Virus record (IMG/VR): IMGVR_UViG_3300037041_002705
Span: 62,001 to 126,000 of that record
DNA length: 64,000 bases
Strand: one strand, 5' to 3'
Source: a virus
Shown here: positions 7,409 through 35,958 of the stretch, piece by piece
How positions within the stretch are numbered: the first letter of the stretch is position 1
Layout of the letters: the number at the start of each line of letters is the position of its first letter
Notes under the pieces: model-generated
What the model was told of the DNA's origin: nothing
Databases searched by the model: none
The model's input: the letters and a program-made list of their open reading frames with translations, nothing else
Position numbers and translations under genes: made by a program

Positions 7409-8627
7409 TGTTCCATATCTAGGGCTGCACGGAAACCGGTCCGGCGTGTTCAACCTGAACGCTTCTAGCTATCTCTCAAGGGTCCATGGAAAGCCTGCAT
7501 CTTCCATAGTAAAGAAGTGCACATTGAGCCCAGAAAAGTTTAGAGAGTTTGCGCGTGAAAATGGACTTTCTTGCATGTCATCCTATTCATATTCCATGAT
7601 TGACGACACGACAAGCGAAGAGAAATTTATTGACTTTGTGTCGAACAACATCAGAAAGGATTATGTGATTGACTGCTCAACCACAGAAACCTATGCAAAC
7701 GCAGACAATAGTATAGTCGTACAAGTCACCATGAAGGAATACTCTCTTAAGACAGATGATGGCCACAAGCTCATCGTTGAAGTCGACAACACAGAGGTTG
7801 CATTCTTGGAAAAAGACAGAGAGTTCTGTGAAGGCCTATCAAACAGAATAATTCAGACGTGCTACCAAAGGGCAAGCCAGTTCATCGATGAGGATTCTCC
7901 GATCATTGGAATAATAGGATCAACGCCGGAAGGAATGTACGTCAAGGAGTATAATCTTGGAAAGGGCGCAAAGAACCTTTCTGACAAAGAGCTAGACATC
8001 CACTATGGAGACGGTTTCTCTGACTTCCACACAAAGCTGACGTCTCTTCTAAAGTCAGACAGCAAAGGCCTGATAATATTCCACGGACAGCCTGGAACTG
8101 GAAAGACGTACTACATAAGGATGCTTCTTAAGGACCTTGTAAAGAGTAAAAAGAATGTCCTCTATGTGCCATCAAACTTCATTGATTCATTCCTTGATCC
8201 AAGCTTCATAACATTCCTGTCTGATTGGATCCTTGAACAGAACAACCCAACAATAATTCTCCTTGAGGATGCTGAGTGTCTCGTTGAGAGCCGTGATTCT
8301 GGCGTCAGAAGCCTTGGCATATCAAACCTTCTGAACATAACAGATGGTATTCTCAATGACATATTGGGCACACAGATAATACTGACATTCAACACAAACC
8401 TTGACTACATAGACTCTGCTCTTCTTAGGCCTGAGAGGCTTCTTGCAAGAAAAGAGTTTACAAACCTAAGTAAGGAAGAGTCATCAAGGCTGATTGAACA
8501 CTTGGGAATAGACCACGATGCTGGCAATGACATGTCTCTTGCTGACATCTATTCACTAAAGAACAACAGGACTGTTCTGTATCACAACATAAAGGAAAAG
8601 AAGTCTAAGGTGGGGTTTGTCATATGA
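7392..8627 (+). CDS. AAA-family ATPase
   Basis: 411 residues. A ~200-residue N-terminal region of unknown fold precedes an AAA module: Walker A GQPGTGKTYY near residue 233, Walker B TIILLEDAE near 287, sensor-1-like LTFNTN near 332, and an arginine-finger-type LLRPERL after it. The arrangement recalls BCS1-like and other classical AAA proteins that remodel protein complexes as hexamers. The substrate is unknown; assembly of virion or replication complexes would both fit. It is flanked by overlapping genes on both sides (17 bases upstream, four bases into the kinase gene), so the three are likely one transcript. Confidence 0.8.
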   Translation: MLNLNDVPYLGLHGNRSGVFNLNASSYLSRVHGKPASSIVKKCTLSPEKFREFARENGLSCMSSYSYSMIDDTTSEEKFIDFVSNNIRKDYVIDCSTTETYANADNSIVVQVTMKEYSLKTDDGHKLIVEVDNTEVAFLEKDREFCEGLSNRIIQTCYQRASQFIDEDSPIIGIIGSTPEGMYVKEYNLGKGAKNLSDKELDIHYGDGFSDFHTKLTSLLKSDSKGLIIFHGQPGTGKTYYIRMLLKDLVKSKKNVLYVPSNFIDSFLDPSFITFLSDWILEQNNPTIILLEDAECLVESRDSGVRSLGISNLLNITDGILNDILGTQIILTFNTNLDYIDSALLRPERLLARKEFTNLSKEESSRLIEHLGIDHDAGNDMSLADIYSLKNNRTVLYHNIKEKKSKVGFVI

Positions 8628-9136
8628 GAAAAATAGTGCTGTGCGGGGCTTCATGTTCAGGAAAAACCACAATAAAACAGAACCTTGTTGATAAAGGTTT
8701 TAAGCCTGGTATTTCTTACACAACCCGTGAAATAAGAGAGGGTGAAATAGATGGGGTTGATTATAGATTTGTATCAAAGGAAACGTTTTCTGACCTCATA
8801 AGTAAAGGTGCATTCTTTGAATACGATGATACATTCGATGATTACTACGGAACCTCAAATGATGATTTTGAGAACTGTGATGTTTTCATACTAACGCCAA
8901 AGGCCATAGAAAAATTGAAGACAACAGGGCTCATATCAAAATGCGTAATCGTTTATCTTATGGCACCGATACATGTAAGAATAAAAAGGGCGACAGAGCG
9001 CGGTGATTCCATTGGAAAGATGCTACATAGGATATCAAATGATTCTGCTGCATTTGCTGGGTTCACAGATTATGACCTTGCGATTGAGACAAAAGAAGGA
9101 AACATGGAAGAAGTCATAAACATAATACATCAATAA
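8624..9136 (+). CDS. Guanylate kinase-like nucleotide kinase
   Basis: 170 residues, the usual size for guanylate kinase or slightly short. P-loop GASCSGKTT is at residues 8-16. The GMP-binding block follows as SYTTREIREGEIDGVDYRFV, and the LID-type arginines as HVRIKRATERGD. These are the family hallmarks, so phosphorylation of (d)GMP with ATP is expected. In T4 a different-fold kinase (gp1) phosphorylates dGMP, dTMP and hydroxymethyl-dCMP; a similar broadened role here, alongside the hydroxymethylase-like enzyme at 17234, is speculation. It overlaps the ATPase gene by four bases, and the next gene starts at its last base. Confidence 0.8.
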   Translation: MRKIVLCGASCSGKTTIKQNLVDKGFKPGISYTTREIREGEIDGVDYRFVSKETFSDLISKGAFFEYDDTFDDYYGTSNDDFENCDVFILTPKAIEKLKTTGLISKCVIVYLMAPIHVRIKRATERGDSIGKMLHRISNDSAAFAGFTDYDLAIETKEGNMEEVINIIHQ

Positions 9137-9783
9137 TGAAAAACCCACAGCTTCCAACAGTTGCAGTAATAACTCCAACATACAAGAGGGCAACGAAGAT
9201 AATTGATAGGTGTGTTAGGTCCGTTCAGGGACAGACATACAATGGTCCTGTTATGCACATAATATGTTCTGATGGCCCAGAAGAGGAACATGTAAGAGAG
9301 TACGTTGATTCATTGAATGACCCAGGAGTAATTTATGTGTCAACCGGTGAAAACACGAACTCCTATGGAGGAGGCGTTAGGGAGTATGTTCTTACAAATT
9401 ATATAGAGCCCTTTGAGTATTCCAACATAGAGTACCTTGTTCACATGGATGATGACAACGTCCTTTTTCCACACTTCATAGAAGATAATGTGAATGCCCT
9501 TGAGGCAAACCCGGACAAGGCATTCTCGATATGTAAGATACTCCATCTGGGACCTCTTCCGCAACACCTTGGCCCTGCACCACAAGTCATAAATGGTGTG
9601 CCACCAGTGTTCCAGAACATAGATACACTCCAAGTTGTGGTTCGACGTGAAGCAATGCTACAATGCAGATGGAACACATTCTCTGGCGAACAGGGGTACT
9701 ATAACGATGGATACACATATGATCGTTTGGGAAAGATGTTTGAATGGGTTGAAATACCAGAGCTTTTAGCAGTTCACATCTAG
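9136..9783 (+). CDS. GT-A glycosyltransferase (family 2-like)
   Basis: 215 residues. The N-terminus PTVAVITPTYKRATKI and the metal/nucleotide-sugar site YLVHMDDDNVLF identify a GT-A fold, close to family 2. It is shorter than typical family 2 enzymes and seems to be a minimal catalytic domain with no membrane anchor, so a soluble enzyme acting on protein or DNA in the cytoplasm is likely. Donor and acceptor cannot be read from sequence. It follows the guanylate kinase-like gene with a one-base overlap and ends just before the lysozyme promoter motif. Confidence 0.8.
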   Translation: MKNPQLPTVAVITPTYKRATKIIDRCVRSVQGQTYNGPVMHIICSDGPEEEHVREYVDSLNDPGVIYVSTGENTNSYGGGVREYVLTNYIEPFEYSNIEYLVHMDDDNVLFPHFIEDNVNALEANPDKAFSICKILHLGPLPQHLGPAPQVINGVPPVFQNIDTLQVVVRREAMLQCRWNTFSGEQGYYNDGYTYDRLGKMFEWVEIPELLAVHI

Positions 9784-14550: not shown

Positions 14551-15069
14551 TTATGCCCTGTGCTTCATGTAGTCCCTGAGGGTTGAAAGGTAATCATCTG
14601 CAAGTGTCACCTTGCTCTGAATCCAATCTTCTATGGAATCAAGGCCTTCGACCATCTGTATGAGTTCTTCTGCATTCTCAATGATGTTCTTCAGTTGGTA
14701 CTGGATCATCTTTGATTCTGGCTCATGCGCTTCTGGTGCATCCGATCCTGTTGACCTCATAGGAGAGTGTGAAGTGACATGAACGATCTCTTCTTCTCCT
14801 TCTTCTGGGCCAAACTCCATCTCATCTTCTATTTCAAGCTCATCATCCTTTTCACTTAGGAATTGTTCAAATGTAGCAAGGTTTGACTCCTTGACCTTTG
14901 TTGGAAGGCCCTTGTGCTTTGTTGAAGCATACTTTTCTAGCTCCTTTTCAGACATGGACTTTGCAAGGTCCTTCACCTTTTGGCTGACCTTTGATGCAGG
15001 AACTTCACCCCTCTTGAAAGCAAGCGCTAGTCCCATTATCTTTTGTTGTTGTTGTGATCTTGCTGGCAT
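14551..15069 (-). CDS. DUF3008-like protein with acidic C-terminal part
   Basis: 172 residues from ATG 15069. A TTG at 15090 is in frame, but the family start is MPARSQxQQ, so the later start is preferred. The first ~55 residues (MPARSQQQQKIMGLALAFKR, then a segment ending STKHKGLP) match DUF3008, a small family common in T4-like and cyanophage genomes with no known role. A CTS-like piece, TFEQFLSE, follows near residue 75, then a strongly acidic stretch and a helical C-terminal domain with IENAEELIQMVEG and a second long helix. It is the second gene of a leftward pair, 13 bases from the upstream gene. A head-core or packaged protein is inferred. Confidence 0.65.
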   Translation of the reverse strand: MPARSQQQQKIMGLALAFKRGEVPASKVSQKVKDLAKSMSEKELEKYASTKHKGLPTKVKESNLATFEQFLSEKDDELEIEDEMEFGPEEGEEEIVHVTSHSPMRSTGSDAPEAHEPESKMIQYQLKNIIENAEELIQMVEGLDSIEDWIQSKVTLADDYLSTLRDYMKHRA

Positions 15070-15082
15070 ATGAAATGTTTTT

Positions 15083-15394
15083 TTATTCAAAAAATCTATC
15101 TAGGTCACCTTCGGTGTCAATAGAATTGAGTGATCTTCTCAGATTCCTCTTCTCGTAGTCCATCTCCTTTAGGATTTCGTCTCTTTCCTTTAGGAACCTT
15201 TCTACCTTCTGTTCTATCTGCTTCCTCTCCTTGCTTTCGATCTCGTGTTTACCGGCCTTATCAAAGAGTTCAATCACACTTCTCTGGATCTCCTGAAGCT
15301 CAAGCTCAAGCTTATGGACCTTGTTAAGCTCCTTAAGTGCCTTGTACCCCTCATTTGATTCATTTATGCTCTTGATCTCTAAAAAGGTTTTCAC
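15083..15394 (-). CDS. Coiled-coil protein with capsid-targeting-like N-terminus
   Basis: 103 residues with a GTG start. MKTFLEIKSINES at the N-terminus closely resembles the T4 capsid targeting sequence (MKTYQEFIAE), with predicted cleavage between Glu12 and Ser13. The rest is a highly charged continuous helix (ELELQEIQRSVIELF; KERDEILKEMDYEKRN), as in internal head or scaffold-core proteins. It is the first gene of the minus-strand pair, and an ATATATTA/TAATATAT motif lies about 16 bases upstream of the GTG. A core or internal head protein is inferred. A short unrelated coiled-coil protein that matches by chance cannot be excluded. Confidence 0.65.
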   Translation of the reverse strand: MKTFLEIKSINESNEGYKALKELNKVHKLELELQEIQRSVIELFDKAGKHEIESKERKQIEQKVERFLKERDEILKEMDYEKRNLRRSLNSIDTEGDLDRFFE

Positions 15395-15423: not shown

Positions 15424-15855
15424 ATGAAAAAAACCTTTCGAGCCCCGGCAAGCCCATTCATGTACCGCCAGGAGGTCTACCAGGATGATCCCTGGAAGAT
15501 GCTATTGATATGCATGATGCTCAACCAGACCTGCTACAAACAGGTTGATAAGGTAAGGGATGCATTCTTTGATAGGTTTCCTACGCCGGAGGACCTGCTC
15601 GCTGCAACCGATGATGAGATCATACAAATAATACGCCCTCTTGGGTTCTACAACAGAAGAGCCAAACAATGGAAGAAGTTTTCAAAGGAGTGGCTGTCTT
15701 GGGATGGGTCCAATGTCACAGATCTTTCTGGCGTTGGAAAGTATGCGTCAGACTCCTGGAAGATATTTCAAGAAGGGGTGTACTCCATAACTGTTGAGGA
15801 TAAGGAGCTGAAGAAATACCTTCAGTGGATAAATGAAAGTGGATACAACAAATAA
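15424..15855 (+). CDS. MBD4-like HhH-GPD mismatch DNA glycosylase
   Basis: 143 residues, the size of an isolated glycosylase domain. It follows MBD4 in order: SPFMYRQEVYQDDPWKMLL (MBD4 has a similar start with HDPWKLLI), MMLNQTCYKQV, PTPEDLLAATDDEI, IIRPLGFYNRRAKQW, LSGVGKYASDSW (residues 101-112, helix-hairpin-helix) and VEDKELKKYLQWI, with catalytic Asp126. The Nth-type catalytic Lys position is Tyr107, so base excision without beta-lyase is expected. MBD4 removes T, U and 5-hydroxymethyluracil opposite G. It sits two genes before the hydroxymethylase-like enzyme, and a role in repairing deaminated modified cytosine is inferred. The C-terminal WINES is alignable with MBD4 and so is not read as a protease site. 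Confidence 0.85.
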   Translation: MKKTFRAPASPFMYRQEVYQDDPWKMLLICMMLNQTCYKQVDKVRDAFFDRFPTPEDLLAATDDEIIQIIRPLGFYNRRAKQWKKFSKEWLSWDGSNVTDLSGVGKYASDSWKIFQEGVYSITVEDKELKKYLQWINESGYNK

Positions 15856-15885
15856 CAATGCTAAAACAATGGAGATAGAACAGGC

Positions 15886-16152
15886 ATGAGCATACTATCA
15901 GAAGCAGATGGAATAGTAAACAACAGGTCTGAAGAAGCAGATCGCCAGTACGGCCCATTCAGCGAAGGCATGGAAAGGGCTGCCATGATATTCAATGGAA
16001 TGACTGGTCTTGATCTTGGAGCAGAACACATGTTCAAGGCACTTGTTGCCCTAAAGCTTTCAAGAGAAAGCTACAGGCACAAGAGGGACAACCTTCTTGA
16101 CGCTGTTGCATACATACAGGGCCTTGAGAACTACATAAATGAGAGGTCGTAA
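15886..16152 (+). CDS. DUF6378-like phage protein
   Basis: 88 residues. The layout resembles DUF6378: an N-terminal helix with NRSEEADRQYGPF, a central segment with AAMIFNGMTG, then KLSRESYRHKRDNLLDAVAYIQ. That family occurs widely in phage genomes next to nucleotide or DNA metabolism genes and has no established activity. No catalytic motif is claimed. The stop overlaps the SGNH-like gene by one base, and 30 bases separate it from the glycosylase, so the three probably share a transcript. Confidence 0.65.
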   Translation: MSILSEADGIVNNRSEEADRQYGPFSEGMERAAMIFNGMTGLDLGAEHMFKALVALKLSRESYRHKRDNLLDAVAYIQGLENYINERS

Positions 16153-17231
16153 TGGCGTTGGCGATATATGACATCCTAAGCAACCTACGAGGAAAAAGGA
16201 TTGCAATTGATGATGTCGTAACAACATATAGCCCAAAGAAGGAATCTCATAAGTCTTCTTGGCCATATCTTCTCAGTTCACAACTAAGAAGCGTCGGACT
16301 GATGTCGGATGTTCTGGCAAAGAATGATGACATCAACAGGTATGATGTTTGGTTGATATCGCTTCCAATGGAGTTCCAAGGAACTTTCAACCTCTTTGGC
16401 GGCGCAAATGAAGAGACTGCTTTGAGGATAAAGAGGCTATCCCAGTTCAAGGGTCAGATCTACATACTCAATCAGGACATGCCAGACATCGGAGCCTTTG
16501 TAAATTCAAGGATGAATGCTGCATGCGATGAATGGAAGCAGCTCGATCCAAGCCTCTATACAGATATATCAAACAGAATAGAGAGGGTCGATCTCACACT
16601 CGACAGCGATACATTCATATATGGCGACAGCCATTCTGTATCGGTCTATGAGCCAGGTGCAAACATAAGCAGGAACGACGGTCAGACGCTCCATGGATTC
16701 CTTAAGAAGAAGGATTCCTTTTTGTATCCTCCTGGAACAAAGAGGGTTGTTCTTTATATGGGAAACATTGATGTGCGGCACCATATCTTTCGTCAGGAAG
16801 ATCCCATGGGCTCTCTTCGTGATCTTACAAAGAGGTATGTTGAGTTTGCAAAGGAGCTGAAGGATGTCCATGGCATGGAGTATGTTGGCCTCGTTGACCT
16901 GCTTCCTGTTGAGCACGAGGGAAGAAAGATACCAAAGACCGGTTGGTACAAGGGAACTCCATTCTTTGGAACAAGGCAACAGAGGGCAGATGCGGTCAAG
17001 GAATTCAATAAGCTCCTCAACGAGCTTTCTTATGACTATGACTACGATGTCATCTCTTGGCCAAAGGACTGGTATGTATTGGACCCGGACAAGTATGCCG
17101 CACAATACATGGAAAGGCCAGGATCCGTTCATCTTTCAAGATCTGCATACCAGTATGACTTTGAGACCGGTATAAAGAACAAAAAGATGAGGACATCCGT
17201 CCTATTTTTTGATATAACTGGGAGCGTTTAA
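16152..17231 (+). CDS. SGNH-hydrolase-like protein
   Basis: 359 residues. A Rossmann-like N-terminal ~140 residues precede an SGNH-type core: GDSH (Gly158 to His161) as block I with a Ser nucleophile, GNID (204-207) as block III in place of GxND, and SVHLS around His327 as block V. The usual DxxH is not obvious, since no Asp lies three before His327, so catalytic competence is uncertain. Family members deacylate lipids, carbohydrates or peptidoglycan. No signal peptide is present, so it would act in the cytoplasm or in the virion. It lies between the DUF6378-like and hydroxymethylase-like genes, two bases from the latter. A carbohydrate de-O-acetylase working with the glycosyltransferases is speculation. 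Confidence 0.6.
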   Translation: MALAIYDILSNLRGKRIAIDDVVTTYSPKKESHKSSWPYLLSSQLRSVGLMSDVLAKNDDINRYDVWLISLPMEFQGTFNLFGGANEETALRIKRLSQFKGQIYILNQDMPDIGAFVNSRMNAACDEWKQLDPSLYTDISNRIERVDLTLDSDTFIYGDSHSVSVYEPGANISRNDGQTLHGFLKKKDSFLYPPGTKRVVLYMGNIDVRHHIFRQEDPMGSLRDLTKRYVEFAKELKDVHGMEYVGLVDLLPVEHEGRKIPKTGWYKGTPFFGTRQQRADAVKEFNKLLNELSYDYDYDVISWPKDWYVLDPDKYAAQYMERPGSVHLSRSAYQYDFETGIKNKKMRTSVLFFDITGSV

Positions 17232-17233
17232 CA

Positions 17234-18094
17234 GTGTATAAAGAATCTATGACGAAGACCATAAACAGTGAAGTCCTTTCCCTTCTATCAAAGATGGAAA
17301 GGGAAGATTCGCCAAGAGGGCTCAAGGTTGTTGAAGAATATCTGACGACCCTTGAGTTCAATCCTCTCTATCCAATGATGAACTTTGAAAACAAGGCATT
17401 CAATTGGAAGTACTTTGTAGGAGAGCTATGGTGGTACCTTACACAAGAGACCACGATTGACAAGATCAATAACTTCTCTAGCTTCTGGAAGACCCTTACC
17501 GTTGATGAGAGGATCAACTCAAACTATGGGTATGTGATGTTGTCAAGGCAACACAATCAATTCAAGTGGGCGCTTGATGCCCTTGTAAGAGATAAGTCAA
17601 CGAGACAGGCCATAATGGTGTTCAACACGCCGGCATACCAAAAGGAAGGTGTCAAGGACTTTGTATGTACAATGTATGTCAATTTCTGGATAAGAGACAA
17701 CAAGTTGAACATGAAGGTCCAGATGAGATCCAATGACATATTCTATGGCCTTCAGTACGATGCACCGTTCTTCTCGGTCGTGTATCAATCGATGTACCTT
17801 GAGCTGATCAAGAAGTATGAGGATCTAGAGATAGGAACCTATTACCACTGCTCAGATAACTCACACTACTACGAAAGACACTTTCCTCTTGTTGAGAAGC
17901 TTAAGCAAGAACAGCCAAACCCAGAAAGAGAGATTGAAATGAGGATCACACGACCTGTGTTTGATTCCTCTGAATCAGGAATTAGTAAGAATGCCATGGA
18001 GTTTGTTGATTACATGGAACAGATCCATGACTTCTCGATCTTTAACACATATGATTACATAGAAATATTTCACAAATTTTTTGTAGAGGAATAA
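17234..18094 (+). CDS. 42: Deoxycytidylate hydroxymethylase-like enzyme (thymidylate synthase fold)
   Basis: 286 residues from GTG 17234; an ATG at 17249 is an alternative. It keeps the thymidylate synthase order: GELWWYLTQETTI (folate-side Glu), NSNYGYVM, catalytic Cys145 in DFVCTMYVNF, RSNDIF (Arg165, Ser166, Asp168) and GLQYDAPFF. The register matches E. coli ThyA minus one, so Asp176 occupies the Asn177 position. Asn there selects dUMP, while Asp is the known mark of dCMP hydroxymethylases such as T4 gp42. The product would be 5-hydroxymethyl-dCMP for phage DNA. The His that follows the catalytic Cys in ThyA is Thr here. Thymidylate synthase or another pyrimidine methylase remains possible. 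The next gene starts at the last base of this one. Confidence 0.75.
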   Translation: MYKESMTKTINSEVLSLLSKMEREDSPRGLKVVEEYLTTLEFNPLYPMMNFENKAFNWKYFVGELWWYLTQETTIDKINNFSSFWKTLTVDERINSNYGYVMLSRQHNQFKWALDALVRDKSTRQAIMVFNTPAYQKEGVKDFVCTMYVNFWIRDNKLNMKVQMRSNDIFYGLQYDAPFFSVVYQSMYLELIKKYEDLEIGTYYHCSDNSHYYERHFPLVEKLKQEQPNPEREIEMRITRPVFDSSESGISKNAMEFVDYMEQIHDFSIFNTYDYIEIFHKFFVEE

Positions 18095-18342
18095 TGGAAG
18101 CGACAGAACAAACAACAGAAACTGCGCAGGAGCGCCAACAAACGCCTGCTTATGTCATCGATGATCCAGCAAAGGCGATCAATGTTCTTGTGAATGCAGC
18201 AGAACATGCACAGCGTCTTGGTGCTTACAGCATGCAAGAAGCAAAGATCATCTATGATGCAATTGTATTCTTCAGGCCTGATAGGTCAGTTGAAGCAGTA
18301 AATGCTGCAGCGGCCCAAGAGGAGCAGCAACAGCAGGCTTAA
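18094..18342 (+). CDS. Small hypothetical protein, codon-optimised
   Basis: 82 residues, no family. A Gln/Glu-rich N-terminus (TEQTTETAQERQQT) and an Ala/Gln-rich C-terminus ending EEQQQQA flank a helical core (AEHAQRLGAYSMQEAKII). Codon use resembles the major capsid gene: ATC for Ile with no ATA, and CGC and CGT among the Arg codons. That suggests an abundant product. The start overlaps the hydroxymethylase-like gene by one base, and the next gene begins three bases after the stop. Abundance could mean a structural or DNA-associated role, but the function is not known. Confidence 0.55.
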   Translation: MEATEQTTETAQERQQTPAYVIDDPAKAINVLVNAAEHAQRLGAYSMQEAKIIYDAIVFFRPDRSVEAVNAAAAQEEQQQQA

Positions 18343-18344
18343 CA

Positions 18345-19064
18345 ATGAAAAGGTGCCTTGTCATAGCGACCGTTGCTGAGGGCGGATTCTACAACGATCT
18401 TCCTTTGGGGTCGGATGCTGAGGCATCACGCACTTTTGATCTCATAAAGATAAACTTCAATCCTGTTGGGTTTTCTAGGGAATCCATAAACCATAGCCAT
18501 CAACCATGGTACCAAGAAGATGTAGGATTCAAACACCACATCTACAAGAGGCTGATAGAAAAACTGAATCTTCTTGATAGATATGACTGGATCTGGATGC
18601 CTGACTACGATGTCCATCTTGAACAGTCAGAGATTGAGAGGATGTTTAAGATCGCACAGGAATACAACCTGAACATCTGTCAGCCTTCTCTTACGCATGA
18701 TAGCTACCATAGCTTTCCTTTTGTACTGAACGATCCAACAAAGTTCATGAGGTACACAAACTACGTTGAGATCATGTGCCCGCTGTTCAAGACAGAAGCG
18801 CTGAAGAAGGTCCTTTGGACATTTACCATCACACACTCTGGTTGGGCACAGGATTTTCTTTGGGCAAGGGATCTCAACTATGAAAGGCTTGCAATCATTG
18901 ATGATGTACAGGCAAAACATGTCAAACCAGTTGAGAGCCAATATTGGCAGCTTCCAAATGGATTAAATGCTGATCAGGAGCTTGACATGGCAATAAAATT
19001 GTTTGGTCTTCAAAAGGAAATGTTCTGGCCTAAAGCAATAGGAGGAATAGATCGATGGACATAA
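18345..19064 (+). CDS. DUF707-like glycosyltransferase
   Basis: 239 residues. The DUF707 pattern is followed: DRYDWIWMPDYDVHL (paired acidic residues in the metal site), LNICQPSLTHDSYHS, YVEIMCPLFKTEALKK and HSGWAQDFLWARDL, then an AIIDDVQAKH segment. DUF707 proteins are GT-A-like transferases of unknown donor, found in plants and bacteria. No signal or membrane helix is present. It follows the hydroxymethylase-like gene and the small abundant protein; a role in modifying hydroxymethylated DNA or a virion glycan is an inference from position only. It overlaps the following gene by 10 bases. Confidence 0.7.
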   Translation: MKRCLVIATVAEGGFYNDLPLGSDAEASRTFDLIKINFNPVGFSRESINHSHQPWYQEDVGFKHHIYKRLIEKLNLLDRYDWIWMPDYDVHLEQSEIERMFKIAQEYNLNICQPSLTHDSYHSFPFVLNDPTKFMRYTNYVEIMCPLFKTEALKKVLWTFTITHSGWAQDFLWARDLNYERLAIIDDVQAKHVKPVESQYWQLPNGLNADQELDMAIKLFGLQKEMFWPKAIGGIDRWT

Positions 19065-27108: not shown

Positions 27109-28344
27109 GTGCCAATCACACCAGTCGTTGCAATATTTTCAAAGGACCCTTCAAAGATTCAAGACATAAAGCTCAAGTCTAGCAGTTACATAGATTGGGA
27201 GTCACATGATTTTGAGTGTCACTTCTTTTCAGACACAGATGATCTGAACAGTGTGATAACCAAGTTGAACCCTGCCGTTTTCATAACAACAGGAAACAGT
27301 TCAGACTATGGTCAATTGTTCAATGCACCATACAGCGTCAGAAGAAAATGGATACATGTCGATGAATACGATGCAAATCCTGTAATAGGCGACAATGCAT
27401 ACACGTGCTTCATAGACTCATCATTGAATGTCGAAAAGAACCTTGCAGATCCTCTTGTTAGCTGCTTCACGCCAACATACAGGACTGGAAACAGGATATA
27501 TCGCGTCTTTGCATCACTTCAGGCACAGAGGCATAAGAACTGGGAATGGGTGATGTATGATGATTCAAACGATGGAGGAAAAACGTATGACATGCTTCTT
27601 GAGCTTGCCCAGCAGGATCACAGGATAAAGGTATTCAGAGGCCCAAAGCCTAGCGGCATGATTGGTGAGGTAAAGAGGTATGCAGCAGGACTCTGCACAG
27701 GAAAGTATCTTGTTGAGCTTGATCATGATGACGTCCTCACATATTGGGCACTTGACCACGTGGTCTCTGGTTTCAATGAGTATCCAGAAGGAAAGTTTCT
27801 GTACACAGATGCATCAGAGGTCTTTGAGACCGGTGGATGCGTGAACTACGGATCGTTCTGGGGCTTTGGATATGGAAGGCATTATGAAGCACACTACAAT
27901 GGTGCAGTATACACGTGTGAAACTGCTCCTATAAACCCAAAGACTATCAGGCACATAGTTGCCGCTCCTAACCACATCAGGGCATGGGAGTCTGATTTCT
28001 ACTTCAGCATAGGCGGACACAACCCACGTCTCCACATAGCTGATGACTACGAACTCGTCGTCCGGAGCTTCCTGAAGACCAGGTTCATACACGTCCCAAG
28101 GCTCTGCTACCTGCAGTACATGAACAGCGGTGGTAACAACACACAGGAGCCAAGGCGCCCTGAGATACAACGTGCAGTAAGATACATATCATCATACTAC
28201 GACAAGATGATACACGACAGGTTCGTCGAGCTTGGGTTCGATGACTTTGTCTGGGATGAAGAGCAACAGAGGTCAAACATGGCAATTCCAAACCCAGAGG
28301 AGACCCCAGATGCTGCGCTTATCACAAAATTTCAGGATCAATGA
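27109..28344 (+). CDS. Family 2 glycosyltransferase with N-terminal extension
   Basis: 411 residues from a GTG. A ~115-residue N-terminal domain of unknown type (PAVFITTGNSSDYGQLFNAP) precedes a GT2 catalytic domain: LVSCFTPTYRTGNRIYRVF, then GEVKRYAAGLCTGKYLVELD with DHDD as the metal site. A HIADDYELVVRSF block follows, as in GT2 acceptor sites. No membrane segment is present. It lies inside the baseplate operon and overlaps the next gene by four bases, so glycosylation of a virion protein is a reasonable inference, unproven. Confidence 0.8.
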   Translation: MPITPVVAIFSKDPSKIQDIKLKSSSYIDWESHDFECHFFSDTDDLNSVITKLNPAVFITTGNSSDYGQLFNAPYSVRRKWIHVDEYDANPVIGDNAYTCFIDSSLNVEKNLADPLVSCFTPTYRTGNRIYRVFASLQAQRHKNWEWVMYDDSNDGGKTYDMLLELAQQDHRIKVFRGPKPSGMIGEVKRYAAGLCTGKYLVELDHDDVLTYWALDHVVSGFNEYPEGKFLYTDASEVFETGGCVNYGSFWGFGYGRHYEAHYNGAVYTCETAPINPKTIRHIVAAPNHIRAWESDFYFSIGGHNPRLHIADDYELVVRSFLKTRFIHVPRLCYLQYMNSGGNNTQEPRRPEIQRAVRYISSYYDKMIHDRFVELGFDDFVWDEEQQRSNMAIPNPEETPDAALITKFQDQ

Positions 28345-30005
28345 GCAGTGGCCTTTTCAGTGTAGGACGTTTGGACAGGAAGTTCATCTATGAATCTTCC
28401 GGAAATCCCAATGAAAGGAAACTAAAGTACAACGATCCATCGTTTGTGACCTTTAGGATACTCTTTGACTTTGATCCCATAGTATCAAATGATGAGGTCA
28501 TGCAAGGCCTTCTCCTTAATGAATCCAGGGATGAAAGCGCTGTTAGCTATCTCAGAAGGATGGGAGAACAGGAAAGAGCCCAGGCATTGAAGGAGTTTAC
28601 ATGGCTCCTTGAAAGAATAACAAATGACTTCCCTTGGTTCTTCAAAACCATATCAGGTATTGATGGCCTCTGGAAATGGGGGTTCATGAATGCTGATGGA
28701 ACTTCCACACAATCAGCACCGGTTGATCTAAGTGTCAGTTGTTACGAGACCGTTGATCTTAGGATGACTGCACTTGCTGACCTTTACAGAAAGGCAACAA
28801 GGGATAGAAGGTACTTCAGAGACCTTTTGACTCTTGATAAGAAGAGGTTCAACATGACGGTTCTTGTCGGAGAGGCAAGAAACCTGAGGACCTTTGTTGA
28901 ATCAAACACAACAGAATGGCTGAACCACGTTTCAACTGTTGCATTTAGGTGCCTTGATTGTGAGTTTGATTTCTCTGGAATTGCTCCTGCCTCATTGGAC
29001 GCATCTGAAGCACCGTCTCAGCTTACACCATCGTTTGGCATAAAGGTCCATAGGGTCCAGGAAACAAATTCATACCTTCTCTTGGATTACATGTTAGGTG
29101 AGATAAAGAGAGACCTCGTCATAAAGCAGGGAGGAAGTGGAGCTGAAGTAAACCAGGACACTGACATAACGAACTACAGGTCTCTGCTTGCACCTTTTGT
29201 GAGGTCGTATGAAGGAAACTACAACCAGGTCCTGTTGGACTTAGGAAGGAATGTATCGCAGAACTTCCTAAACCAGCTTACATTCACAACAGGAGACAGG
29301 CGTTCGTCTCTTACATACCCAGACCTTGATAGGCTAAATAAGCAACAGTTGGATGGCATAACAAAGGAGGCAGAGCTTTCTGCTCTTGCATCATCACTTT
29401 TAAGAACATCCATACAGACAGCAAACATCACAGAAAATATATCGCTCATAGATTTTGGTCGTCCGACTGTTAACACAGACATACCAGAATCGGTAGATCT
29501 TTCTCCACCAAATGTGGCAGAGGATGGAACAAAAATAGGAGATGAAGTGGCAAACCAAATAGATTTTAGAAGACCAAAGGTAGAGACAGAACTATCAGAT
29601 TTCTCACTGACAAAACCAGGTGTCGCAACAGAATTGGATCAAAATGTTGGACTTGTAAAACCTACTGTTCAGAAAGAACTATCTGATGCAGTGAATCTTA
29701 CAAGCCCTACAGTAAACACCGATCAGGGAAGTGGAATAGATCTTAGGGCGCCAGTGGTTCAAAGCGATCTGGACAACAATGTTGGATTCATACAACCTAC
29801 CGTTACAACTTCATTGGACCAAAATGTCCAGTTTGAAAGGCCTACTGTTGAAACCACGATAGATCAAACCCTTTCGTTTGGAAGGCCGACTGTTGCAACA
29901 AGCGTTGACAACAACATAGCATTTGTAAAACCGACAGTGCTTGGCGACATGCCAGACAGCATAGCATTTGAAAAACCAAAGGTAGAAGATGACTTTGGAT
30001 CTTAA
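28341..30005 (+). CDS. Baseplate/tail structural protein with C-terminal 15-residue repeats
   Basis: 554 residues. The first ~370 form a globular domain of unknown family with RITNDFPWFFKTI and a mixed alpha/beta continuation. From residue 372 the chain is about twelve 15-residue repeats of the form F-x-x-P-T-V-x-T-x-x-D-x-N-x-x, for example FGRPTVATSVDNNIA. The array ends at the stop codon and may form a rod or binding strip along the tail. Its end overlaps the spike gene by 17 bases in another frame. A baseplate adaptor or tail-tip role is inferred from position only. Confidence 0.6.
   Translation: MSSGLFSVGRLDRKFIYESSGNPNERKLKYNDPSFVTFRILFDFDPIVSNDEVMQGLLLNESRDESAVSYLRRMGEQERAQALKEFTWLLERITNDFPWFFKTISGIDGLWKWGFMNADGTSTQSAPVDLSVSCYETVDLRMTALADLYRKATRDRRYFRDLLTLDKKRFNMTVLVGEARNLRTFVESNTTEWLNHVSTVAFRCLDCEFDFSGIAPASLDASEAPSQLTPSFGIKVHRVQETNSYLLLDYMLGEIKRDLVIKQGGSGAEVNQDTDITNYRSLLAPFVRSYEGNYNQVLLDLGRNVSQNFLNQLTFTTGDRRSSLTYPDLDRLNKQQLDGITKEAELSALASSLLRTSIQTANITENISLIDFGRPTVNTDIPESVDLSPPNVAEDGTKIGDEVANQIDFRRPKVETELSDFSLTKPGVATELDQNVGLVKPTVQKELSDAVNLTSPTVNTDQGSGIDLRAPVVQSDLDNNVGFIQPTVTTSLDQNVQFERPTVETTIDQTLSFGRPTVATSVDNNIAFVKPTVLGDMPDSIAFEKPKVEDDFGS
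29454..30002 (+). repeat. About twelve degenerate 45-bp coding repeats
   Basis: Consecutive 15-residue units from residue 372 to the end of the 28341 protein, with consensus hydrophobic-x-x-P-T-V and a later D-x-N. Proline and valine positions are the most conserved. The second unit is lengthened and the last is shortened. Degenerate DNA indicates an old, selected array. Confidence 0.8.
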
Positions 30006-33494: not shown

Positions 33495-34631
33495 ATGATT
33501 TTTAATTCAAGAGTCTTTTCGATCTACGAGAATTTTCAACATCCTGTCGATGATGCGACATATTTTGACATGGTGTCAAAAAATTCTAGCGAAGATGTAC
33601 ATAAGACCGTTTCTGCGGGCCAAGTTTTCCAAGTAAACACCGCAACGCTTCTTTCTGATAACATGCTCATCGTCTCTGGGCCTTTCTCTCCTTCGATAAT
33701 GGTGAAGATGAGCAAGGAAAAGGATTTTCTAAAGAGCGTTTCAATGACCGCAGAGGAGCTTATAGGGTCAATATCGGAAAACAATTCATATCACGTCAAG
33801 ATCGTATCAACAGAGTCTGGTCTTAGAGGAAGCTTCTATGAGGCACAGAAGGACGTCCTTCGTAAGGAGTTCTTTGAACAGCTGAGAAATCCTTCAAAGG
33901 TCTATGATGCAAAGATCATGGAGAAGAACAGAGGTGGATACTTTGTCAACGTCTATGGCGTCGATGCATTCCTACCTGGATCGCTTGCAAGTGCAAACAA
34001 GATCATAAACTTTGAGGCTTTCCTAGGAAAGACTGTAAAGGTTATGTTGGATTCATACGTAAACGAAAGCGATACGTTCATAGTATCAAACAAGCGATAC
34101 ATTGAGCACATCATGCCAACGTTGATTGACAACTTTGATATGTCGGTTATGTATGAGGGAACTGTCACAGGTACAATACAGTCTGGAATATTCATTGAGT
34201 TCAATGAGATAATGACAGGCCTTCTTTCGCAGAATGACATGGATCAACAGACACTGAATCTCTTTAAGACCGGTCAGGTTCGACCAGGCGACAAGATCAA
34301 CATATGGGTCCGTGACATAATCCCGCCAAAGAACTTCATCCTTACACAGAACTCAACAGAGACGATGATATCAAGGCTTGCTGATCTTGCAAACATCATT
34401 GAGTCTGAAAACAGTGATGTTGCAATGAATGCTAAGGTTCTTTCGATAAAGGGATCTTATGTTACCCTTGAGTTCAATGGGGTCATGACAACGATATCAA
34501 TGAAGGGACAGTTTGGACAGAACAACAGGCTTAAGATCGGTGGAATGATAAAGATAAGGATAAGCTCTGTTGAGCCAAAGCGAAACAGGGTTTTGGCAAC
34601 CATAATAAACGAAAATGAACCAGAGAACTAA
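33495..34631 (+). CDS. Multi-S1-domain RNA-binding protein
   Basis: 378 residues. Three S1 (OB-fold) domains are readable: ~137-205 (YDAKIMEKNRGGYFVNVYG, then VDAFLPGS), ~219-290 (YEGTVTGTIQSGIFIEF) and ~310-373 (NAKVLSIKGSYVTLEFNG). The first ~130 residues look like a degenerate further module. The GGxxVxxxGxxxFLPGS pattern is the bacterial ribosomal S1 signature. S1 helps ribosomes start on mRNAs with weak Shine-Dalgarno sequences, and many leaders here are A-rich or very short, so a role in late phage translation is inferred. It is preceded by a late-type motif and overlaps the amidoligase-like gene by 17 bases. An RNA-decay or structural role is possible. Confidence 0.75.
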   Translation: MIFNSRVFSIYENFQHPVDDATYFDMVSKNSSEDVHKTVSAGQVFQVNTATLLSDNMLIVSGPFSPSIMVKMSKEKDFLKSVSMTAEELIGSISENNSYHVKIVSTESGLRGSFYEAQKDVLRKEFFEQLRNPSKVYDAKIMEKNRGGYFVNVYGVDAFLPGSLASANKIINFEAFLGKTVKVMLDSYVNESDTFIVSNKRYIEHIMPTLIDNFDMSVMYEGTVTGTIQSGIFIEFNEIMTGLLSQNDMDQQTLNLFKTGQVRPGDKINIWVRDIIPPKNFILTQNSTETMISRLADLANIIESENSDVAMNAKVLSIKGSYVTLEFNGVMTTISMKGQFGQNNRLKIGGMIKIRISSVEPKRNRVLATIINENEPEN

Positions 34632-35958
34632 AGAATTTCTGAACAAGAATGAGATCTTGAACTCGGCCCTCATAGGGTTCGAGTTCGAGTTCTTTTCTAA
34701 TAAGAAGTTCCCAACAGTGGCGGCAGAAATGTCTAGCCTTCTTGGAAAGAAGGTTGTGCCAGCATACAAGATGAATGCAAAGGGAGAAAAGATCCCTGGT
34801 GCCCACACTGATGTTCAAGTAGACTACAACAACTACAAACTGGAGCATGATTTTTCTGGAGGAAGGGCCATGATGGAACTCGTCACTGGCCCTACTCCTT
34901 TTTTTGAAGCGAAGATAATACTTGCAAAGGTCCTTAATTGGATAAAGCAAAACGGCAAAACCAATGATCGTTCCGGCATACACATAAACATAAGCTTCAA
35001 CAGGTTTACCACACCAAACAACAACATTGATATATCAGCGTTGGATGTTCTTAAGCTTGTCCTGACGTTTGACGAAGACTACATCTATGAGAGGTTTCCT
35101 GACAGAAGGAACAATGTTTTTGCGCGATCGGTAGACTATGTGCTCCCAAACAATCTGTTTAGCTTCAATGACAACATCAAGAACATAAACAGATCAAGCT
35201 TTACAGTACCACATGAAAAGTACTTTGGTTTCAACTTTTCAAAGCTTGCAAACGGCTACCTTGAGATGAGGTATCTTGGAGGTAAGGACTATGAGGACAA
35301 GATAGTTGAGATACTTGAGTGTATGGACTATGCAACCCTCACAATCTATGACTGTCTTGCAAATGGAAACTATACCGAAGAAAACCTTTCAAGGCTCAGA
35401 AACAGGCTAGCAGAGCACAAGAAGTTCATAAATGGGATGGTGAACCACAAGGTCTTCTCCGTTTTTTACAAGGACATTGAGGTATATGTTGACCTAAAGA
35501 ACACAGATCAGCTCCTGTCAACATACTGGGAAGAGTACAGAAACGTGCTTTTTGATCTGATATATAGGAATGGGTTGAAGTCTGGGCATATCAACTTGGA
35601 CATAGATCTGCATAGGTATCAGGTAAAGGATGGAGTTTTCAAGAAGCCATGGGGGCTTGCATTCTATGATCTGGTGGACTGTAAGCTAAAGAATTCAATA
35701 GTTGATCAATGCACCCTCATAGGATGCAAGATCTCGTCTTCTCAGCTATACTTCTGTGAGATCATTCTTGATAATACTATCAATGATTCCAAGATAAAAT
35801 CCAGCTACATAAAGACCCTTGACAATAGATTCTCAAACTGCTACATAGACAATCTTCCCCATAATGTAAAGGGTGATATTGTGAATTGCATAATAAGGAG
35901 CGGTGGGATATCTGATTTGACTACAATTGATGATAAGACGACTGTTGTTGGTGTGTAA
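34615..35958 (+). CDS. Amidoligase-like enzyme with beta-helix-like C-terminus
   Basis: 447 residues. Putative amidoligases (glutamine-synthetase-like COOH-NH2 ligases) carry an acidic GxExE opening, a D-S/G-E block and a GxHxHxS block. Here these read IGFEFEFF (Glu23, Glu25), HDFSGGRAMMELVTGP (Asp79, Glu88) and SGIHINISF (His123). The middle is helical. From ~350 a repetitive stretch of short strands with cysteines (CTLIGCKISSSQLYFCEIIL) looks like a right-handed beta-helix. Family members form amide bonds on proteins or small peptides and often sit beside peptide or ATP-grasp genes; the substrate here is not known. The ATG is inside the S1 gene, so the two are coupled. Modification of a virion protein is speculation. 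Confidence 0.65.
   Translation: MNQRTKEFLNKNEILNSALIGFEFEFFSNKKFPTVAAEMSSLLGKKVVPAYKMNAKGEKIPGAHTDVQVDYNNYKLEHDFSGGRAMMELVTGPTPFFEAKIILAKVLNWIKQNGKTNDRSGIHINISFNRFTTPNNNIDISALDVLKLVLTFDEDYIYERFPDRRNNVFARSVDYVLPNNLFSFNDNIKNINRSSFTVPHEKYFGFNFSKLANGYLEMRYLGGKDYEDKIVEILECMDYATLTIYDCLANGNYTEENLSRLRNRLAEHKKFINGMVNHKVFSVFYKDIEVYVDLKNTDQLLSTYWEEYRNVLFDLIYRNGLKSGHINLDIDLHRYQVKDGVFKKPWGLAFYDLVDCKLKNSIVDQCTLIGCKISSSQLYFCEIILDNTINDSKIKSSYIKTLDNRFSNCYIDNLPHNVKGDIVNCIIRSGGISDLTTIDDKTTVVGV

Follow-up and report, generated by a model that had tools for sequence, protein, structure and literature searches.

Deamination of 5-methylcytosine (5mC) yields thymine and deamination of 5-hydroxymethylcytosine (hmC) yields 5-hydroxymethyluracil (hmU), neither of which is uracil, the speciality of ordinary uracil-DNA glycosylase. 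Pairs in which a mismatch repair enzyme adjoins a cytosine C5-modifying enzyme are known, namely Vsr beside Dcm and Mig.Mth beside M.MthTI. The subject of this report is a run of six genes at positions 15424-19064 of a 64,000-nucleotide stretch of viral DNA (the window, bases 62001-126000 of the 133.7 kb IMG/VR virus record IMGVR_UViG_3300037041_002705), in which a gene for a predicted MBD4-type DNA glycosylase occurs together with one for a probable hydroxymethylase of deoxycytidine monophosphate (dCMP), a member of the thymidylate synthase (TS) fold.

Human MBD4 uses D560 for catalysis, reads the base through V448, Q449, and Y540, contacts the orphan guanine through R468, and has been solved in complex with T:G and hmU:G DNA (PMC12073362). 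Among phages, a 2022 study of AXL1 described its gene product 65 (gp65), reported elsewhere in Xp12 only, as an ENDO3c protein whose activity was unclear (PMC9206674), and the cytosine of Xp12 DNA is replaced, with 100% 5mC (PMC7653180). For enzymes of the TS fold, changing Asn177 of E. coli ThyA to Asp switches the substrate from dUMP to dCMP (PMC8670742); enzymes with one or the other residue at this site are referred to below as Asn-type and Asp-type.

An original prediction, made from the window sequence alone, had read the run as a cluster for the synthesis and repair of modified cytosine and had regarded the pairing of glycosylase and hydroxymethylase as undescribed. A literature search found no account of such a pairing as a system and no earlier description of MBD4-type phage glycosylases, although the AXL1/Xp12 gene itself was already on record as stated above. 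The individual families are known; what appears to be new, judged by the papers searched, is that phages modifying cytosine at the nucleotide level recurrently carry an MBD4-type guard.

A predicted MBD4-type glycosylase in a six-gene run

The six open reading frames (ORFs) of the run lie on the same strand, overlapping their neighbors by 1 base or spaced 2-30 bases apart, as had been described:

15424-15855, plus strand: predicted MBD4-type (HhH-GPD) mismatch DNA glycosylase, 143 amino acids (HhH-GPD, 2.3e-12)
15886-16152, plus strand: DUF6378 protein, 88 amino acids (DUF6378, PF19905, 2.3e-8)
16152-17231 (1-base overlap), plus strand: SGNH/GDSL-like protein, 359 amino acids (PF00657, 9.3e-4, under the cut-off; PHROG 13881, 3e-57)
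17234-18094, likely ATG start at 17249, plus strand: TS-fold dCMP hydroxymethylase-like enzyme (TS family, 6.9e-21)
18094-18342 (1-base overlap), plus strand: ORF of 82 amino acids with a Gln/Ala-rich C-terminus, 86% identical to its copy in contig L008
18345-19064, plus strand: DUF707-like putative glycosyltransferase with a DYD motif (PF05212, 5e-6, slightly over the cut-off)

The 82-residue ORF is the sole member without any match in family profile searches of the six proteins. The gene order is retained in four related contigs (L007-L010) up to the contig ends and is complete in L008, with proteins 67-98% identical. Ratios of nonsynonymous to synonymous substitution rates (dN/dS), taken where dS was unsaturated, are 0.07-0.11 for the glycosylase, 0.02-0.06 for the DUF6378 protein, 0.08-0.10 for the SGNH-like protein, 0.03 for the TS-fold enzyme, and 0.15 for the DUF707-like protein; the run is under purifying selection where dS can be measured. 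It is open on the right, where the next gene begins at 19055 within the DUF707-like gene and the array goes on into structural genes.

The identification of the first gene as MBD4-like is supported. The solved structure of MBD4 (PDB 1ngn) matches residues 3-139 of the 15424-15855 protein at 3.1e-23 and 85 bits (phmmer), followed by the next HhH-GPD family at 4.9e-8 and 36 bits, and an identity as Endonuclease III or MutY, at no more than 36 bits, was rejected. By manual count from the alignment, Asp126 corresponds to the catalytic D560 of human MBD4, Gln16 to Q449, Tyr107 to Y540, and Leu73 to L506; D126 is invariant across 8 phage proteins and the same column is invariant across 17. The arginine finger, human R468, is replaced by Gln35 in the window protein and by Gln or Leu in its phage relatives, so mismatch reading by the phage enzymes may differ in detail, and "MBD4-type" as used here denotes homology and the catalytic Asp rather than identical mismatch reading. 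The product, which is 32-34% identical to AXL1 gp65, is on these grounds predicted to be an MBD4-type DNA glycosylase.

The TS-fold enzyme and the modified base

The hydroxymethylase-like call for the fourth gene also stands. Of the PDB entries it matches T4 dCMP hydroxymethylase best (4.5e-19), with thymidylate synthases all at 6e-10 or worse, and it carries the nucleophile Cys145, an SNYG motif, and Asp176 at the dCMP-specificity site, the position of Asn177 in E. coli ThyA. In the TS tree it clusters with gp42 of Aeromonas phage 31 (support 95/94), apart from the Asn-type enzymes and the AXL1 enzyme. The window phage genome further encodes ThyX, dUTPase, ribonucleotide reductase, and a dCMP-deaminase-family gene; dihydrofolate reductase (DHFR) was looked for in that genome and none was found. 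With ThyX present and DHFR absent, the TS-fold enzyme would be dispensable for dTMP and is probably not the phage's thymidylate synthase, and these two features together with Asp176 led to the rejection of ordinary thymidylate synthesis as its main role. A hydroxymethylase leaves folate unoxidised, so the absence of DHFR suits hmC better than 5mC. The gene product is therefore probably dCMP hydroxymethylase-like, with hmC the favored base, as predicted from its sequence.

Were the enzyme instead a dCMP methylase, the DNA would carry 5mC and the glycosylase would act on T:G. The AXL1/Xp12 group offers a precedent, since an Asp-type TS adjoins the MBD4-like genes there and Xp12 DNA is fully 5mC, yet this reading is unlikely for the window phage, whose enzyme groups with the dCMP hydroxymethylase of phage 31 rather than with AXL1, finds T4 dCMP hydroxymethylase as its closest structure, and lacks the DHFR that AXL1-type clusters encode. 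A C5 DNA methylase as source of 5mC was also sought in the window phage, and none was found.

Recurrence among phages and viral metagenomes

A search of INPHARED (50,697 records) for the glycosylase returned 8 convincing records in two groups; matches in Enterococcus records (H9 and H10) were excluded as weak and interrupted by frame breaks. In the Bradleyvirinae phages AXL1, DoCa6, YB23, and Donnerlittchen, the MBD4-type gene lies directly before genes for a nucleoside triphosphate (NTP) pyrophosphohydrolase, an Asp-type TS, dCMP deaminase, and DHFR. Phage DLP4, whose TS is 94% identical, has the same cluster with the glycosylase alone absent, which marks the glycosylase gene as an optional addition. 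Extension of this group to Xp12 rests on the published report (PMC9206674). Cyanophage S-TIM54 encodes an Asp-type TS (GVPLDMF) and, at another genomic site, a C5-methylase.

In two profile scans, the viral contigs of IMG/VR yielded at least 600 stretches resembling MBD4, and long records were then searched for TS-fold genes and the specificity residue read. An Asp-type TS was present in 8 of 32 MBD4-positive records (G000, G001, G005, G010, G018, G031, G033, and G043), compared with 1 (G077) of 44 long control records chosen via two arbitrary 14-mers, four of which had a TS-fold gene of any type (Fisher p = 0.003 at record level, a guide and not an exact probability, as the records are related and often incomplete). 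One MBD4-positive record, G035 (L074), has an Asn-type TS and a C5 DNA methylase instead. Beyond the main cases, six IMG/VR records from five deep lineages carry an Asp-type TS. The glycosylase tree contains a well-supported clade of 18 rows, inferred from its S-TIM54-like sequences to be mostly marine; outside it, Asp-type TSs occur in 7 of 9 deep lineages, a lineage count set after the tree was seen. The partner TSs fall in separate branches of the TS tree (gp42-like, AXL1-like, and others), a pattern better explained by repeated association than by inheritance of a single pair.

With nearly the same signature, a scan of prokaryote genomes covering about 85,000 species gave 6 loci (L451-L456), all in marine metagenome-assembled genomes, and within prokaryotic sequences the MBD4-type family appears to be mainly a viral one. 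Upstream of the MBD4-like gene, two marine contigs (L089 and L098) have a series of five large ORFs that are paralogs of one another.

A proposed fidelity function

At a probability of roughly 0.6, the glycosylase is proposed to be an accessory fidelity gene tied to C5 modification of cytosine, acting on hmU:G in the window phage and on T:G in phages with 5mC. The TS-fold enzyme would convert dCMP to 5-hydroxymethyl-dCMP (hmdCMP), which would be phosphorylated and then incorporated into phage DNA as hmC. Hydrolytic deamination would turn hmC into hmU, and residual cytosine into uracil, each opposite G, and the unrepaired hmU:G and U:G pairs would give rise to C-to-T mutations. The MBD4-type glycosylase would flip out and excise the mispaired pyrimidine opposite G, leaving the host AP (apurinic/apyrimidinic) endonuclease, polymerase, and ligase to complete the repair. 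In 5mC phages of the AXL1/Xp12 group, the same type of enzyme would remove T from T:G.

Several observations weigh against this proposal. In the 18-row clade, 17 records are without a detectable Asp-type TS, S-TIM54 being the sole exception, so the glycosylase also serves without such a partner and the coupling is not universal. In the other direction, an MBD4-like gene was not found in phage 31, PTm1, or the LR756500 phage, all carriers of an Asp-type TS. Adjacency of the two genes is limited to the window lineage and the Bradleyvirinae, with distances of kilobases to more than 100 kb elsewhere, and two relatives (L025 and L028) have the glycosylase and no TS on their short fragments. At the position of R468, with which human MBD4 contacts the orphan guanine, the phage proteins have Gln or Leu. 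Were hmC glycosylated, moreover, deamination would give glycosyl-hmU, a base that MBD4 is not known to excise.

Universal coupling of glycosylase and TS was rejected because of the marine clade, and on genomic evidence the coupling is real in several lineages and optional in both directions. Recurrence in other phage genomes had been set beforehand as a test of the original prediction, and it was partly borne out. Two unrelated adjacent clusters and the excess over control records speak for it; a general pairing rule fails on the marine clade and on phage 31, a T4-type hmC phage lacking the glycosylase. The earlier interpretation is thus partly supported, its core idea of a glycosylase linked to a hydroxymethylase surviving the recurrence test, unlike, so far, its capping step and its wider cluster.

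The marine clade, which has the glycosylase and no detected cytosine-modifying TS, also favors the view that the enzyme is a general repair protein, one that clears any DNA of U or T mispaired with G (from polymerase errors or ordinary deamination), its proximity to TS genes reflecting the clustering of nucleotide metabolism. Continuation of the window array into structural genes fits this view as well. Enrichment of Asp-type TSs over the controls, adjacency of glycosylase and TS in two unrelated lineages, and occurrence of the glycosylase in the 5mC phage group all run counter to it, and general repair is a somewhat doubtful explanation. A more specialized role, as a weapon against modified or mismatched DNA of the host or of rival phages, is highly improbable: MBD4 requires a mismatch opposite G and spares intact cytosine and hmC, and an enzyme attacking modified DNA would hit the phage's own DNA. 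Its precedent is that glycosylases targeting modified phage DNA, such as bacterial Brig1 against T4, are known as a defence (PMC11078745).

The accessory fidelity role can be extended, tentatively, to a wider picture in which phages that replace cytosine with a C5-modified base have repeatedly acquired, from a virus-enriched MBD4-type family, a guard dedicated to that base's deamination, and in which the guard of the window phage sits in a DUF6378-SGNH-TS module whose SGNH protein may be an undescribed hmC-modifying or de-capping enzyme.

Candidate partner genes

The SGNH-like protein carries GDSH, GNID, and SVH blocks, and its homologs occur in 43 INPHARED records, exclusively T4-like Aeromonas and Stenotrophomonas phages and Tenacibaculum phages PTm1 and PTm5. 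Among these, an Asp-type TS was confirmed in phage 31 and PTm1, and phages 25 and IME13 each carry another TS-fold gene, placed like that of gp42. In phage 31 (L441, 4013-6400), the SGNH-like domain is fused to a C-terminal region 41% identical to the product of a separate gene in contig L028 (4259-5485), which matches the helical domain of 5hmdU DNA kinase at 5.9e-8, over the cut-off. In L028 this kinase-like gene is unfused and close to the SGNH gene, which the glycosylase and DUF6378 genes adjoin. Fusion to a 5hmdU-DNA-kinase-like region in a hydroxymethylase-bearing phage suggests that the SGNH-like protein belongs to hydroxymethylpyrimidine-DNA chemistry.

The DUF6378 protein is modeled as all-helical (AlphaFold predicted local distance difference test score, pLDDT, 70) and has no PDB match, a negative that carries no weight. 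Its alignment, a shallow one of 6 near-identical sequences, gave no hhalign match to NMAD1 or to the AXL1 NTP-pyrophosphohydrolase, no kinship with MazG or PRA-PH emerged either, and a role as an NTP-pyrophosphohydrolase is a conjecture. A DUF1599/NMAD1-like gene (E 6e-5, slightly under the cut-off) was observed at 29143-29523 of G000:C1 in the window phage record.

Capping of hmC by the DUF707-like protein, as first envisaged, is so far unsupported. Its family match is confined to residues 75-120 (46 residues), its AlphaFold model (pLDDT 42) is not interpretable, and searches turned up 5 closely related IMG/VR proteins, no credible sequence match in the PDB, and no relative known for DNA glycosylation; PDB matches to designed pentatricopeptide repeat (PPR) proteins were dismissed as repeat artefacts. 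It is a weak glycosyltransferase candidate, and as the source of a cap two family 2 glycosyltransferases elsewhere in the window are just as plausible. The first of these, which is also a candidate for DNA or virion glycosylation, directly follows a kinase gene that is perhaps a candidate for the phosphorylation of hmdCMP:

8624-9136, plus strand: guanylate-kinase-family nucleoside monophosphate kinase (PF00625, 4e-21; TIGR03263, 4.2e-24, under the equivalog cut-off)
9136-9783, plus strand: family 2 glycosyltransferase (PF00535, 1.9e-10)
27109-28344, plus strand: family 2 glycosyltransferase (PF00535, 7.2e-14)

Host and surrounding genes

Some genes encode signal peptides and a C-terminus resembling those of type IX secretion, which suggests a host in the Bacteroidota. 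Upstream of the run, two genes point in the opposite direction, encoding a DUF3008 protein (14551-15090, minus strand) and a coiled-coil-like ORF (15083-15394, minus strand); about 30 bases separate the divergent start codons of this pair and the glycosylase run. At 14-1675 of the window, an ORF of the structural region contains collagen-like Gly-X-Y repeats (GPQG/NQG/TQG units), with long spurious ORFs in other frames, and a 447-residue ORF at 34615-35958, without a Pfam match, has repeats of pentapeptide-type appearance in its C-terminal part.

Implications

The mutational cost borne by phages with modified bases has been little studied, and a phage-encoded MBD4-type guard, if true, would show that the cost of deamination is real and selected against. 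The guard reading also gives a testable explanation for the unassigned gene of Xp12 and AXL1, and the survey suggests that a mammalian repair enzyme connected with cancer has mostly viral relatives among prokaryotic sequences. Small glycosylases of this kind might be useful for the chemistry of 5mC and 5hmC sequencing.

Comparison with known systems

The window glycosylase resembles the glycosylase domain of mammalian MBD4 over the whole domain, and the two have in common the catalytic Asp, the Gln and Tyr that read the base, and the Leu at the orphan G; it differs in lacking a methyl-CpG-binding domain, in having Gln in place of the arginine finger (Gln or Leu in its relatives), and in being encoded by a phage. 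AXL1 gp65 and the Xp12 ENDO3c protein are of the same glycosylase type and belong to an Asp-type TS operon, in phages whose DNA contains 5mC (Xp12) or resists restriction (AXL1), and their MBD4-type nature was not recognized by earlier authors (PMC9206674). The AXL1 partner TS, unlike that of the window, comes from another branch and is accompanied by DHFR and dCMP deaminase. In the TS and carbamoyltransferase clusters found by MetaGPA, Asp177 TS homologs mark phages with modified cytosine and co-occur with PRA-PH and dCMP deaminase; carbamoyl serves as the cap in those phages, and the main text of that paper mentions no repair glycosylase (PMC8670742). T4 gp42 shares the specificity Asp, the catalytic Cys, and the SNYG motif with the window TS, which falls in the same branch as phage 31 gp42, whereas T4-like phage 31 is without an MBD4-like gene and the window TS lies within a structural-gene array. 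In Vsr-Dcm and Mig.Mth-M.MthTI, modification follows DNA synthesis and is confined to motifs, whereas in the window phage it would take place at the nucleotide level and is expected at every cytosine. By analogy, the window pair would work like these two systems while being a member of neither.

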